From NCBI RefSeq assembly GCF_001039275.2, contig NZ_CP030117.1:2480001-2544000 (forward strand): DNA of 64,000 bases, given 5' to 3'. Shown in pieces: positions 2,746 to 6,533 of the stretch; positions within the stretch are counted from its first letter, which is position 1; the number at the start of each line of letters is the position of its first letter. The stretch comes from Brevibacillus brevis (GTDB lineage Bacteria > Bacillota > Bacilli > Brevibacillales > Brevibacillaceae). The position numbers were made by a program, and so were the translations under genes. The notes under the pieces were generated by a model. The model was given only the letters and a program-made list of their open reading frames with translations. It made no database searches and had not been told where the DNA came from.

Positions 2746-3945
2746 GTGCTTCGTTTGGCGGTGGGGACGGTCCAAAAAGTTCTGGAAAAGCAAACGGGGA
2801 TGCAGATACTCGAAGTCCGGACAGAATCGGTTACTGGATACAAAATGGAGAGAGTGCTGTCTTTTTTGCAGGAGGATTATAAAAGTGGCGATTTACTTTT
2901 GATCAATACAACCGCTGTTCGATTGGAATTGGGGACAGGCGGGTATCATTTTGTCGTAGGAAAGATTACTCAACCAGAGGAAACGGATGTTCTTCCAAAT
3001 GAGTGGGGGCATGTGATGAAAATGCGCTATTCGCCATGGCAGCTCGCGGTAGATTCGGTAGAAGAACAGGCCAGCCCGTACCACCCTTTGTTTGTGCAAG
3101 AAGATTTATCCTTGGAAGGTACCCCTGTTTTGATTAGCGAGCTACACAGTCTTCTACCTGTTGCTGTCCTTGCTTTGCATATAAAAAATCCAAATGCCCG
3201 TATCGTATATGTCATGCCAGACGGCGCATCTTTGCCGATTGCCTTGAGTCAGCATGTCCATCAATTAAAAGTAAACGGGAGCTTGGCTGCGACAGTGACG
3301 ACAGGTCATGCGTGGGGGGGAGATCGTGAGTCGTTGACAATTCATAGTGGCTTGCTGGCAGCACGCCATGTAGAGCATGCCGATATCATTGTTTGTATGC
3401 TCGGACCTGGGGTAGCGGGTACGGGTACACCTTATGGCTTCTCGGGAATTCAGTTAGCTGAGGTCATTCATGCCGTAGCCACTCTTGGAGGAACACCCTT
3501 TTTTATTCCTAGAATCAGCTTTGGGGACCCACGTACCAGGCATTACGGTGTCAGTCATCATACCGTGTCGATTTTAAACAGATTTGCTCTCTGTCCTGCC
3601 CTGGTTACAATCCCGATTTTCAGGGATGAAAGAGATGAAGTCCTTTCACGGCAAATGAAAGCAATAGAAGTTGCAGGAAAGCATATTTTCATAAAGGGAA
3701 AAGTCCCAGACCCGTCAGAACTGGCTTCACTGGAAAAGGGGTATGGCTTGTCCTTTTCTACGATGGGGCGAAATTGGCAAGAGGACCCTGCCCCTTTTCA
3801 GACGGCATGGATGGCTGCCGATTTGGTAGAAAACAGTCTGGGCTACATCTTCCAAACCGTTAACGACGCCCCGCATTCGCCCGCTTCATCAAGTACTCTT
3901 GAAGCGTTAGGTCTTTACTTGACCAGGAACGAAGTGCAGCCTTGA
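2746..3945 (+). CDS. DUF3866-like conserved protein of unknown function
   Basis: A 399-residue protein without a signal peptide or clear membrane helices. The GTG start follows a strong AAGGGGGGAA ribosome site by about 7 nt. A glycine-rich central segment reads 'MLGPGVAGTGTPYGFSG' and is followed by 'AEVIHAVATLGGTPFFIPRISFGDPR', a pattern I associate with the DUF3866 family seen in Firmicutes and actinobacteria. No catalytic motif can be named. It lies between the yqjE peptidase and nudF. The last 86 bp overlap, on the opposite strand, the small mciZ-like gene. The family name is from memory and should be checked by profile search. Confidence 0.7.
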   Translation: MLRLAVGTVQKVLEKQTGMQILEVRTESVTGYKMERVLSFLQEDYKSGDLLLINTTAVRLELGTGGYHFVVGKITQPEETDVLPNEWGHVMKMRYSPWQLAVDSVEEQASPYHPLFVQEDLSLEGTPVLISELHSLLPVAVLALHIKNPNARIVYVMPDGASLPIALSQHVHQLKVNGSLAATVTTGHAWGGDRESLTIHSGLLAARHVEHADIIVCMLGPGVAGTGTPYGFSGIQLAEVIHAVATLGGTPFFIPRISFGDPRTRHYGVSHHTVSILNRFALCPALVTIPIFRDERDEVLSRQMKAIEVAGKHIFIKGKVPDPSELASLEKGYGLSFSTMGRNWQEDPAPFQTAWMAADLVENSLGYIFQTVNDAPHSPASSSTLEALGLYLTRNEVQP

Positions 3946-4000
3946 TCTCCCAAGCTTTTCCGACCATACGCAAGTGCTTTTCGCTAACATATGTTTTCAT
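3860..4000 (-). CDS. mciZ: MciZ-like mother-cell inhibitor of FtsZ
   Basis: A 46-residue ORF on the minus strand begins MKTYVSEKHLRMVGKAWEI and ends in RANAGRR. The segment 'VGKAWEI(K)A(A)L' matches, as I remember it, the core of B. subtilis MciZ ('VGKAWEIRAKL'), the 40-residue sporulation peptide that caps FtsZ filaments. Its key Arg is Lys here. GGAGGAG (near 4009-4014) stands about 9 nt before the ATG. The location beside nudF and upstream of spoIIM also fits my recollection of the B. subtilis arrangement. The 3' part overlaps the end of the DUF3866-like gene antisense. A CATAAGTT box about 50 bp upstream could be a sigma-E -10, but its -35 is poor. Confidence 0.8.
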   Translation of the reverse strand: MKTYVSEKHLRMVGKAWEIKAALRSWSSKDLTLQEYLMKRANAGRR

Positions 4001-4022
4001 TCATGATCTCCTCCGATACAAT
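3994..4022 (+). promoter_or_regulatory. Candidate sigma-A promoter for the nudF operon
   Basis: TTTTCA (3994-3999), a 17-nt spacer and TACAAT (4017-4022). The -35 overlaps the start codon of the divergent mciZ-like gene, so the two transcription units are head to head. Confidence 0.45.
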
Positions 4023-4104
4023 AGGGTGGACAAGCTCTATGCTCCCAACTTATGGAGGGAATCGACGATTTAGAACGACTTCATGAAAAAGGATGATGAC
4101 GACA

Positions 4105-4662
4105 GTGAATAAATATGATCACTTGTATGAAAAAACCATTTCCAGTCAACCCATTTATGACGGAAGAATTATTAAGGTCAAGGTAGATGAAGTACTTCTG
4201 CCCAATGGCAACACAGCCAAGCGAGAAATCGTGAATCATCAAGGGGCGGTTGCAGTATTACCGATAACAGATGATAACAAAATGGTTGTAGTTCGTCAGT
4301 TCCGCAAGCCTTTGGAGCGTACAATCGTGGAAATCCCAGCAGGAAAGCTGGAGCCAGGGGAAGAGCCACTTGCATGTGCAATGCGCGAGCTGGAAGAAGA
4401 GACAGGTTATGTTGCGAGTCAGTACACACCGCTCAGCTCTTTTTATACATCGCCAGGCTTCGCGGATGAAATTTTACATGTTTTTGTGGCCACTGGTTTG
4501 AAAAAAGGAGAAAGCAAACCGGACGAGGATGAGTTCGTTGATGTGCTGGAAGTAACACTGGAAGAAGCGCATGCCCTGCATCAAAGTGGAGAAATCCGTG
4601 ATGCCAAGACAGTCGTGGCATTATACGCGTGGGAAAACAAAATGCTGCGCGAACGTGGGTAG
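4105..4662 (+). CDS. nudF: ADP-ribose pyrophosphatase (Nudix hydrolase)
   Basis: A 185-residue Nudix hydrolase cleaving ADP-ribose to AMP and ribose 5-phosphate. The Nudix box is complete in 'GKLEPGEEPLACAMRELEEE' plus 'TGY', with the REL-EE core, and is preceded by 'VRQFRKPLERTIVEIPAG', the strand pattern of the ADP-ribose subgroup. Starts at 4093 and 4096 (ATG) are also possible, but the AAAAAGGA ribosome site abuts them. GTG 4105 has the right spacing and aligns with the length of B. subtilis NudF. The stop lies 4 bp before the next ATG, so the two genes are translationally coupled. The family call is very secure. Confidence 0.9.
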   Translation: MNKYDHLYEKTISSQPIYDGRIIKVKVDEVLLPNGNTAKREIVNHQGAVAVLPITDDNKMVVVRQFRKPLERTIVEIPAGKLEPGEEPLACAMRELEEETGYVASQYTPLSSFYTSPGFADEILHVFVATGLKKGESKPDEDEFVDVLEVTLEEAHALHQSGEIRDAKTVVALYAWENKMLRERG

Positions 4663-4666
4663 TACG

Positions 4667-5839
4667 ATGCTTTCTTCCTATTTTTGCGACATGCATATTC
4701 ACATCGGTGGTACGTGGACGGGTAAACCTGTGAAAATAACGGCTTCACGCCAAATGACACTCACCAAAATTTTGGAGGAAGCCTCAGAGAAAAAAGGGAT
4801 GGATGTCATCGGGATTATTGATGCACATTCGCCGGAGGTTCAGGATGAGCTGGTAAATCTGTTGGAAAAGGGATCAGCCATTGAACAGGTGGATGGAGGA
4901 ATTTCCTACAAAGATACCTTGCTTATCTTGGGTTGCGAAGTAGAAATCAAGGAGCCGGGGCGTGGTGCAGCTCATTTTCTCGTTTATCTACCGAAGCTGC
5001 AAGAAATGAAGCAATTTACCGCGTGGCTGTCAGAACGCTGCAAAAATGTGCAATTGAGTTCTCAGCGTATCTACACATCACTCAGGGAATTACAAGCCTG
5101 CGTCGATCAATTGCAGGGACTCTTAATCCCGGCCCATGTTTTTACGCCGCATAAAGGGTTGTATGGGAGCTGTACGGATTCGATGGCAGAAGTGCTCGAT
5201 CCTTCGCTCATCTATGCGGTCGAGCTAGGATTGAGTGCGAATACCATTATGGCGGACCGCATATCCGAGCTGCATGACAAAACCTTTCTCACAAACTCAG
5301 ATGCCCATTCTCTGGCGAAGATAGGCCGGGAATATCAAGCGATGTATATGCAAGAGCGTTCCTTCGCAGAGTGGGTGAAAGCAATTAAGCGTATCGGTGA
5401 CAGAGGGGTTCGTATGAACTATGGTCTACACCCTGAGCTTGGCAAGTATCATCAGACGGCGTGTAAAGCTTGCCAGTCTTTACTAGCGGCGGATGCCTCA
5501 GGCAAATGTCCGGAATGCGGCTTCCAACGAATTGTGCGAGGGGTTGCAGCGCGCATTGATCAGCTAGCGGATGTAGAGGCAGGCCAGCATCCAGCATTCC
5601 GTCCTCCTTATATCGAGCAAATCCCGTTGGAATTCATTCCGGGAGTCGGTCCGAAAATGTTGGACAAGCTGTATCAATCGTTTGGTACACAGATGAACGT
5701 ATTGCATCGAGTGAACGAAGAACAGCTCACTCATGTTGTGGGAGAGAAAATCGCTTCGCTTATTGTGCAAGCACGAGAGGGAAAACTTTCTGTCCAAAAG
5801 GGTGGTGCCGGTACCTACGGAAAGATCGTCCCGATGTAG
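4667..5839 (+). CDS. Endonuclease Q family protein (YqxK/TIGR00375-like, PHP domain)
   Basis: A 390-residue protein of the EndoQ family, DNA-repair enzymes that nick 5' of deaminated bases such as uracil and hypoxanthine. The N-terminus 'FCDMHIHIGG' supplies the first PHP metal histidines, 'IGIIDAHSPE' the next, and 'NSDAHS' a later metal motif. A zinc-ribbon follows ('CKACQSLL ... CPECGF'), then a C-terminal helix-hairpin-helix region ('LEFIPGVGPKMLDKLY'). Reading could be opened as far upstream as 4571, but that part lies inside nudF in another frame. ATG 4667, 4 bp after the nudF stop, starts exactly at the conserved PHP strand. Function is inferred from family; B. subtilis YqxK is the local orthologue by synteny. 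Confidence 0.82.
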   Translation: MLSSYFCDMHIHIGGTWTGKPVKITASRQMTLTKILEEASEKKGMDVIGIIDAHSPEVQDELVNLLEKGSAIEQVDGGISYKDTLLILGCEVEIKEPGRGAAHFLVYLPKLQEMKQFTAWLSERCKNVQLSSQRIYTSLRELQACVDQLQGLLIPAHVFTPHKGLYGSCTDSMAEVLDPSLIYAVELGLSANTIMADRISELHDKTFLTNSDAHSLAKIGREYQAMYMQERSFAEWVKAIKRIGDRGVRMNYGLHPELGKYHQTACKACQSLLAADASGKCPECGFQRIVRGVAARIDQLADVEAGQHPAFRPPYIEQIPLEFIPGVGPKMLDKLYQSFGTQMNVLHRVNEEQLTHVVGEKIASLIVQAREGKLSVQKGGAGTYGKIVPM

Positions 5840-5906: not shown

Positions 5907-6533
5907 GTGCGTTCACGAGTCGGACAAACTATCCAATCCTATGCGAGAGAACATCAGTCACTCTACTGGTTCACGATCGTCCTGTTTACGATGGGCATTA
6001 TTTTCGGAGCCGTCCTCGTCAATTCACTGCCATTGTCACAGAAGCAGGAGCTGTACGGTTTTCTGCAATATTTTTTCAACAGTCTTGGCAGTGATGGAAT
6101 CCCGGAGACCAGTGCCCATTTTCAGCAGGCGTTTGGTCATTATGCCAAAACTATAGCGATCATGTGGGTGCTAGGATTATCCATTATTGGGTTGCCTATG
6201 ATTTTGTTGATGCTCTTTTTAAAAGGGGTCGTGGTTGGTTTCACCGTCGGGTTTTTGGTAAGTCAACTCCAATGGCAAGGCGTAACATTTGCTATGGTGG
6301 GTGTTCTCCCGCAAAATTTATTGGTCGTCCCTGCCCTTTTTATTGTAGGTGTCAGCGGAATTTCGTTTTCTCTTCGACTCATACGAACGAGAGTGCTAAG
6401 CAAAAGGGATGTCATCATGCCACATTTTATGGGCTATACCGTTCTTGTTCTTAGCATGCTGGCGGTATTGACGATTGCAGCCTTGTTTGAAACCTTCATT
6501 TCCCCTAGGCTGATGCAGCTTGTGCTTAATTAA
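5907..6533 (+). CDS. spoIIM: Stage II sporulation protein M
   Basis: A 208-residue integral membrane protein with about five hydrophobic segments (starting at 'SLYWFTIVLFTMGIIFGAVL' and ending at 'TVLVLSMLAVLTIAALF'). SpoIIM forms the DMP complex with SpoIID and SpoIIP, which thins septal peptidoglycan and drives engulfment of the forespore. The GTG start follows GGGAGG by 9 nt. The order EndoQ-spoIIM-fur is that of B. subtilis (yqxK-spoIIM-fur), so the assignment is well supported by context and topology. The stop codon overlaps a Fur-type operator. Confidence 0.9.
   Translation: MRSRVGQTIQSYAREHQSLYWFTIVLFTMGIIFGAVLVNSLPLSQKQELYGFLQYFFNSLGSDGIPETSAHFQQAFGHYAKTIAIMWVLGLSIIGLPMILLMLFLKGVVVGFTVGFLVSQLQWQGVTFAMVGVLPQNLLVVPALFIVGVSGISFSLRLIRTRVLSKRDVIMPHFMGYTVLVLSMLAVLTIAALFETFISPRLMQLVLN

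Follow-up and report, generated by a model that had tools for sequence, protein, structure and literature searches.

MciZ is described in the literature as a sporulation peptide of Bacillus subtilis. According to the available parts of these papers, it is produced under sigma-E control, extends the C-terminal sheet of FtsZ by further strands and caps the minus end of the filament (PMC4929429, PMC7430163, PMC6126333). A salt bridge between Arg20 of MciZ and Asp280 of FtsZ is reported to be very important in B. subtilis, and the interface also comprises hydrogen bonds between FtsZ beta9 and MciZ beta2 and hydrophobic contacts between H1 and H10 (PMC10089256, in the portion available). Within the part of the MciZ literature that was covered, searches for the peptide outside Bacillus (Brevibacillus, Clostridia, Paenibacillus and sporulation core genes) retrieved nothing. 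In the accessible text of PMC10089256, Brevibacillus appears only as the source of edeines, and in the accessible clostridia-related literature MciZ is used as a tool; the Paenibacillus paper retrieved is unrelated.

The window analysed here is a stretch of 64,000 nucleotides from Brevibacillus brevis (assembly GCF_001039275.2, contig NZ_CP030117.1, positions 2,480,001 to 2,544,000 of the forward strand). An earlier note, made from its letters, had proposed that a MciZ-like peptide is encoded antisense to the end of a DUF3866-like gene, at a nudF/spoIIM locus.

The mciZ gene and its neighbours

The features of the locus are as follows.

2746..3945, forward strand: DUF3866 gene (Pfam DUF3866, 1.4e-115; domain at residues 41-358 of 399), convergent with mciZ
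3860..3945, both strands: overlap of mciZ and DUF3866, 86 nt, tail to tail
3860..4000, reverse strand: mciZ (46 codons and a stop codon), predicted to encode a sporulation peptide that caps FtsZ
3994..4022, forward strand: candidate sigma-A promoter of nudF, TTTTCA-N17-TACAAT, with the -35 inside the first mciZ codons
4008..4014, reverse strand: mciZ ribosome binding site GGAGGAG, seven bases 5' of the start
4047..4054, reverse strand: candidate sigma-E -10 element of mciZ, CATAAGTT, CATAnnnT being kept in 26/26 genus genomes
4069..4076, reverse strand: candidate -35 element of mciZ, GTTCTAAA, GTTCTA being kept in 26/26
4105..4662, forward strand: nudF-type NUDIX hydrolase gene (Pfam NUDIX, 3.9e-22), divergent from mciZ
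4571..5839, forward strand: PHP-family open reading frame (Pfam PHP_C), whose true start may be further in
5907..6533, forward strand: spoIIM (Pfam SpoIIM, 1.7e-31)
downstream of spoIIM, forward strand: Fur gene (Pfam)

The small gene reads from an ATG at 4000 to a stop codon ending at 3860 on the reverse strand, and its product of 46 amino acids includes VGKAWEIKAAL. The frame and its strong ribosome site are thus present as the earlier note had described them. The identity that the note had drawn from the VGKAWEIKAAL core is also supported: a profile search, which it had suggested as a check, matches the product to the Pfam family MciZ (PF13072) with 34.1 bits against a curated cut-off of 22.2 (E = 2.2e-8). 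The product is free-standing, MciZ is the only Pfam family found in it at E ≤ 0.01, and a profile search of the whole 6.44 Mb genome gives this frame as the single MciZ match at E ≤ 0.001. An NCBIfam search found no family at E ≤ 1. Compared directly with the PDB by phmmer, the product resembles B. subtilis MciZ weakly (E = 0.015) because it is so short. A phage origin was set aside: a tblastn search of 50,697 phage records with the product returned nothing at E ≤ 1, a test with little power at this protein length. The open reading frame is confirmed as a real mciZ gene of the already known MciZ family. For the window alone, this is a well-supported annotation of a small gene; the value of the finding lies in the locus.

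mciZ is found in all 26 genomes of the genus, with 23 invariant columns in the alignment of its products and with the GGAGG core of the ribosome site kept in every one. The product has exactly 46 residues in 25 of them and 56 in the other (L005), and residue 20 is basic throughout, Lys in 14 and Arg in 12. Two traits that the earlier note had singled out as potentially altering FtsZ binding, the extended C-terminus (46 versus 40 residues) and Lys for the key Arg, are therefore common in the genus, and both were rejected as functional novelties.

The nudF/spoIIM setting named by the note holds as well, Pfam giving a nudF-type NUDIX hydrolase, PHP, SpoIIM and Fur in series on the forward strand. 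mciZ adjoins nudF on the opposite strand, as it does in the Bacilli relatives L044, L045 and L047, and the PHP gene and spoIIM are conserved neighbours that recur beside mciZ in other genomes. For nudF itself, two starts are available, GTG at 4105 and ATG at 4093; the ATG comes directly after AAAGG, and the GTG, with better spacing from it, is probably the true start. DUF3866 is found in 238 of 398 genomes sampled from the phylum; it was not detected in any of the other 15 genomes sampled from the same class. In the part of PMC12548448 available, a study of essential genes, a DUF3866 gene of Clostridioides difficile is listed in a table as not targeted.

Spread of the gene order across the phylum

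Over the 398 genomes, the Pfam MciZ model matched 15, including this one and three of the class. The remaining eleven, outside the class, comprise nine open reading frames of 41-44 amino acids, one (L033) with a frame of 102 amino acids, and a false match (G332/L039) rejected for a stop inside it. Nine of the ten credible ones are flanked by DUF3866, PHP, nudF or spoIIM-region genes, as judged by eye and then by phmmer for these genomes; the match L030 lies near a contig end.

A first-round profile (A1), built from 20 sequences and run on the 398 genomes, matched 96, and 92 of the matches are in the conserved locus, in which mciZ is convergent with DUF3866 and divergent from nudF, PHP or spoIIM. 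When the 14 genomes whose frames built the profile are excluded, the count is 79 of 82. "In the locus" here means that phmmer at 1e-6 finds in the flank one or more of nine reference proteins (DUF3866, NudF, PHP, SpoIIM, Fur, M20, XerD, PPM and AKR); all 92 also have a reference protein gene on the opposite strand within 900 nt. The layouts, given as upstream plus downstream neighbour, are nudF and DUF3866 (50), SpoIIM and DUF3866 (15), PHP and DUF3866 (12), and variants (15). A second-round profile (A3) of 93 rows, run on 378 of the sampled genomes, gave 114 matches, 27 of them new, and 25 of the new ones are in the same locus, defined in this round by a reference protein within 900 nt. The profile having been grown in two rounds, the held-out test consists of these 27 loci only.

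Altogether, 117 genomes under 44 family labels have the gene in this locus, and SpoIVA is found in 116 of the 117 (92/92 in the first round, 24/25 in the second) versus 336/398 in the sample, where the family labels and the second-round SpoIVA count come from lists copied or checked by hand. The one locus-supported mciZ in a genome with no SpoIVA match is L268 (G102), a draft of 280 contigs in which the absence may be a gap. Within the class, three of the 15 other sampled genomes have a mciZ match and several of the remainder have SpoIVA, so that mciZ is not needed by every sporulating member.

Among the 92 first-round loci, four Bacilli included, 84 encode 37-52 amino acids, 83 have a recognisable ribosome site, and the product terminates in LH or LN in 35. 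As far as the available text of PMC3789822 goes, the -35 of sigma-E promoters is of the ATA type, their -10 is shared with sigma-K, and the motifs of C. difficile are similar to the B. subtilis ones. With a matrix made from the B. subtilis consensus, a sigma-E-type promoter (p ≤ 0.05) was found on the mciZ strand in 63 of 93 upstream regions, which are those of the 92 syntenic loci and of L042; on the opposite strand, 11 regions gave one. In the 25 held-out second-round loci, the corresponding counts are 18 and 3. The genomes are related, and these counts are not independent.

Several matches were discarded as false: those in G242, G155 and G416, which lie inside frames of 90-288 amino acids with no recognised neighbours; second matches in G277 and G301 (1128-aa frame); and the second-round matches in G229 and G199, whose neighbours are unrecognised. 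Extra second-round matches in G179 and G301 were left aside. The match G150/L042, near a contig end, has neighbours that cannot be judged and was kept in the profiles and the promoter count. The syntenic but short or odd rows L080, L115, L121, L125 and L132 are included in the synteny and promoter counts and were left out of alignment A3; alignments A5 and A6 omit further rows.

A view from the DUF3866 side is given by the best 80 of at least 563 confirmed DUF3866 matches on named contigs. Among these 80, mciZ lies against the DUF3866 end in 32, beside PHP in one (L155), and is missing from 47. Carriers include Alkaliphilus sp. (L164), Marinisporobacter sp. (L160), Geosporobacter ferrireducens (L225), Thermincola ferriacetica (L154), Desulfotomaculum copahuensis (L224), Desulfoscipio geothermicus (L180) and Syntrophomonas zehnderi (L212). 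Within the same best 80, no mciZ was found at the DUF3866 loci of Romboutsia, Terrisporobacter, C. difficile and Tissierella, or at that of Alkaliphilus peptidifermentans (L170), so that presence and absence occur within one genus. In the 39 evaluable of the 48 loci with no adjacent mciZ (38 without the gene, plus L155), the next open reading frame begins at most 82 nt from the DUF3866 stop, which leaves no room for mciZ there. In thirteen DUF3866 loci from genomes with no credible first-round match, a local profile found no credible mciZ; in the second round, a match turned up on another contig of one such genome (G268), beside nudF. One contig labelled Lutibacter sp. B2 (L151) carries a clostridial-type DUF3866-mciZ-spoIIM-xerD-ppm locus, and the genus name looks wrong.

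Are the clostridial-type frames homologous to MciZ? A profile of 63 non-Bacilli rows, gathered by growing outward from the Pfam MciZ model, was compared with the whole PDB, and the only significant match is B. subtilis MciZ (2mrw, 1.5e-7; 4u39, 5.3e-7; next entry, 0.051). An hhalign comparison of this profile with the genus alignment gave 97.5%. Judged from these profiles, homology to MciZ is detectable with no Bacilli sequences in the query. At E ≤ 0.01, the Pfam model itself already reaches 22 of the 63 rows, so databases may list them.

Predicted structures point the same way. An AlphaFold model of the window MciZ (mean pLDDT 77.9) has strands at residues 2-5 and 10-13 and helices at 16-28 and 33-43, a predicted beta-hairpin and helix in the order known from the FtsZ:MciZ crystal. 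In the PDB, the model is matched best by 4u39_J, which is MciZ (TM 0.56 by query and 0.69 by target; rmsd 0.9 over 28 columns; Foldseek E 0.4, not significant, prob 0.94). The model of a clostridial-type member, L043 (mean pLDDT 92.8), is strand-strand-helix-helix, and its best PDB match is again MciZ in the FtsZ complex (TM 0.69/0.78; rmsd 1.6 over 36 columns; Foldseek E 1.4, not significant, prob 0.69). The alignments behind both models mixed Bacilli and other rows.

Because Brevibacillus keeps the arrangement of the non-Bacilli genomes, with DUF3866 on one side and nudF on the other, it connects the gene of Bacillus with its clostridial counterparts. The locus indicates that the gene order to which the Bacillus peptide belongs is old and widespread among spore-formers.

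Predicted contact with FtsZ

By analogy with B. subtilis, the peptide would act as follows. After polar septation, sigma-E RNA polymerase in the mother cell would transcribe mciZ. The 46-residue product would fold as a beta-hairpin onto the edge of the C-terminal sheet of FtsZ, with its helix lying across the polymerisation face, and by capping FtsZ filaments it would keep the mother cell from dividing a second time. The timing, the capping and its purpose are all carried over from B. subtilis; nonetheless, we consider it very probable that the window gene is a mciZ of this kind, a sigma-E-driven peptide that caps FtsZ and stops the second mother-cell division. Over residues 18-321, the FtsZ of this genome can be aligned with no gap to the FtsZ crystallised in 4u39 (E = 2e-154), and it keeps the Asp280 partner of residue 20, as counted by hand in the alignment. 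As this Asp is kept, the basic residue of the window peptide, Lys20, could keep the contact. The step from B. subtilis to capping in this genus would thus be a close one, while that to FtsZ inhibition by the peptides of clostridial groups is longer.

The distant members differ at positions 17 and 20. Among 84 non-Bacilli rows, position 20 is Leu in 36 and Arg or Lys in 28, so that a basic residue is not general in this group, and position 17 is Lys, Arg or Ser in 60 and Trp in 2. The same rows keep the hairpin pattern, Gly14 (79/84), an acidic residue 18 (69/84) and Leu23 (71/84). The most serious alternative starts from here: the protein of this genus, or those of the clostridial groups, might be MciZ homologues that no longer act on FtsZ, or that have another partner or other contacts. 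The replacement of Trp17 and the prevalence of Leu at position 20 outside Bacilli, the divergent C-terminal tails and the reported weight of the Arg20-Asp280 bridge in B. subtilis (PMC10089256, in part) speak for it. Against it, residue 20 is Lys or Arg in all 26 genomes of this genus, and the distant members retain the conserved positions just named, the locus and the sigma-E-type promoters; the best fold match of the clostridial-type member is MciZ bound to FtsZ, and the beta9-beta2 bonds and H1-H10 contacts offer further parts of the interface (PMC10089256, same portion). On balance, such a change of function is improbable, yet it deserves the most weight among the alternatives.

With capping of FtsZ as the preferred reading, a wider one can be proposed with moderate confidence: MciZ would date back to ancestral endosporulation, as a peptide that is driven by sigma-E, caps FtsZ and has its gene lying antisense between DUF3866 and nudF, and mother-cell shutdown of FtsZ would, as part of the same joint reading, belong to the original sporulation programme. 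Its scope is the 44 family labels of the sampled phylum; elsewhere the gene is cleanly missing and DUF3866 then abuts the next open reading frame. That the residue-20 contact is reported to be very important and yet is missing in many distant members lowers the probability of this ancestral reading and raises that of an altered function. If the clostridial spore-formers share the activity, an FtsZ-capping block of the second division is an old and widely shared step of sporulation. If so, more than 100 natural variants, many of them with no Arg20 contact, are at hand to map the residues needed for FtsZ capping.

Overlap with DUF3866, promoters and comparison with known systems

The C-terminal half of mciZ runs antisense through the last 86 bp of the DUF3866 gene, exactly where the earlier note had placed it. 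All 26 congeners have the overlap: it spans 86 nt in twenty of them, 80 nt in L002, L003, L004, L020 and L024, and 116 nt in L005. It is common elsewhere too, occurring in 52 of the 78 first-round loci where DUF3866 is the neighbouring gene. Under one genus label, g137 (L049, L065, L067, L068 and L072), the mciZ frame is 89-104 amino acids long and the overlap with DUF3866 147-219 nt. In the window, the DUF3866 stop codon (3943-3945) stands opposite bases of the mciZ codons for Ile19 and Lys20 as their reverse complement, and this complementarity would explain the stable position of the stop.

Conservation of the frame in relatives, another check that the note had suggested, was found: it is open in all 26 genus genomes, and pairwise divergence by mciZ codon position follows the order 3 > 1 > 2 both inside and outside the overlap. 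In the mciZ frame, pN/pS is 0.09 outside the overlap (codons 2-18) and 0.29 inside it (codons 22-46), versus 1.8 for the DUF3866 frame across the overlap; it is therefore mciZ, not DUF3866, that holds the shared stretch. The DUF3866 C-terminus concerned falls beyond its Pfam domain. Judged from these substitution patterns, selection acts on the mciZ protein.

Upstream of mciZ, all 26 genus genomes have GTTCTA(A/T)(A/T) separated by 14 (24 genomes) or 15 nucleotides (2 genomes) from CATAnnnT, which begins 54-56 nt 5' of the start codon. The -10 candidate is of the sigma-E/K type, from which we infer sigma-E. The -35 candidate (TTCTAAA) is atypical in departing from the usual ATA core, and a textbook sigma-E -35 was sought at the conserved window site and not found. 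With the B. subtilis consensus matrix, the conserved site, or one a base off, scores highest in six of the seven genus loci scanned; in the seventh, the window locus itself, another site is preferred over it. On the other strand, ATTGTA, the complement of the candidate nudF -10 TACAAT (4017-4022), is found in 26/26 genus upstream sequences, and it is plausible from this arrangement that the mciZ start codon lies within the nudF promoter region. Between 3994 and 4076, the candidate promoters of nudF (forward) and mciZ (reverse) face each other such that each transcript would cross the promoter of the other, and mutual interference is possible.

This geometry bears on another explanation, that the conserved element is an antisense RNA tuning DUF3866 or nudF, the peptide being secondary or a second product. 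The transcript would indeed cover the 3' end of DUF3866 and cross the candidate nudF promoter, and the frequency of the overlap is in its favour. However, selection acts on the protein, 26 of the 78 loci with DUF3866 as neighbour have no overlap with it, and mciZ is retained in some loci where M20 or aldo-keto reductase genes replace DUF3866, which makes this explanation very unlikely. That the frame is no gene at all and only a by-product of the DUF3866 antisense strand has almost no probability left: half of it is antisense to DUF3866, and antisense frames can stay open by chance, but codon positions and the pN/pS values inside and outside the overlap rule out a chance frame, and the Pfam match and the conserved start and ribosome site agree.

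Read as a protein-coding mciZ, the window gene can be set beside the known systems. B. subtilis MciZ (40 amino acids; PDB 2mrw and 4u39) is of the same Pfam family, PF13072, and shares the VGKAWEI core; the window peptide differs in its 46 residues with a basic tail and in Lys at position 20. Like its counterparts in L044, L045 and L047, the window mciZ points away from nudF; its tail overlaps DUF3866, a gene not found in the B. subtilis control genome. The small non-Bacilli frames (Alkaliphilus, Geosporobacter, Thermincola, Desulfotomaculum and Syntrophomonas, among others) resemble the window gene in position, orientation, size and predicted fold, and in most of them also in a sigma-E-type promoter, whereas Trp17 and Arg20 are mostly replaced. 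SulA and other FtsZ inhibitors likewise act on FtsZ polymerisation; in the descriptions available (PMC4929429, in part), SulA is set apart from MciZ in that it sequesters monomers, whereas MciZ caps filaments.
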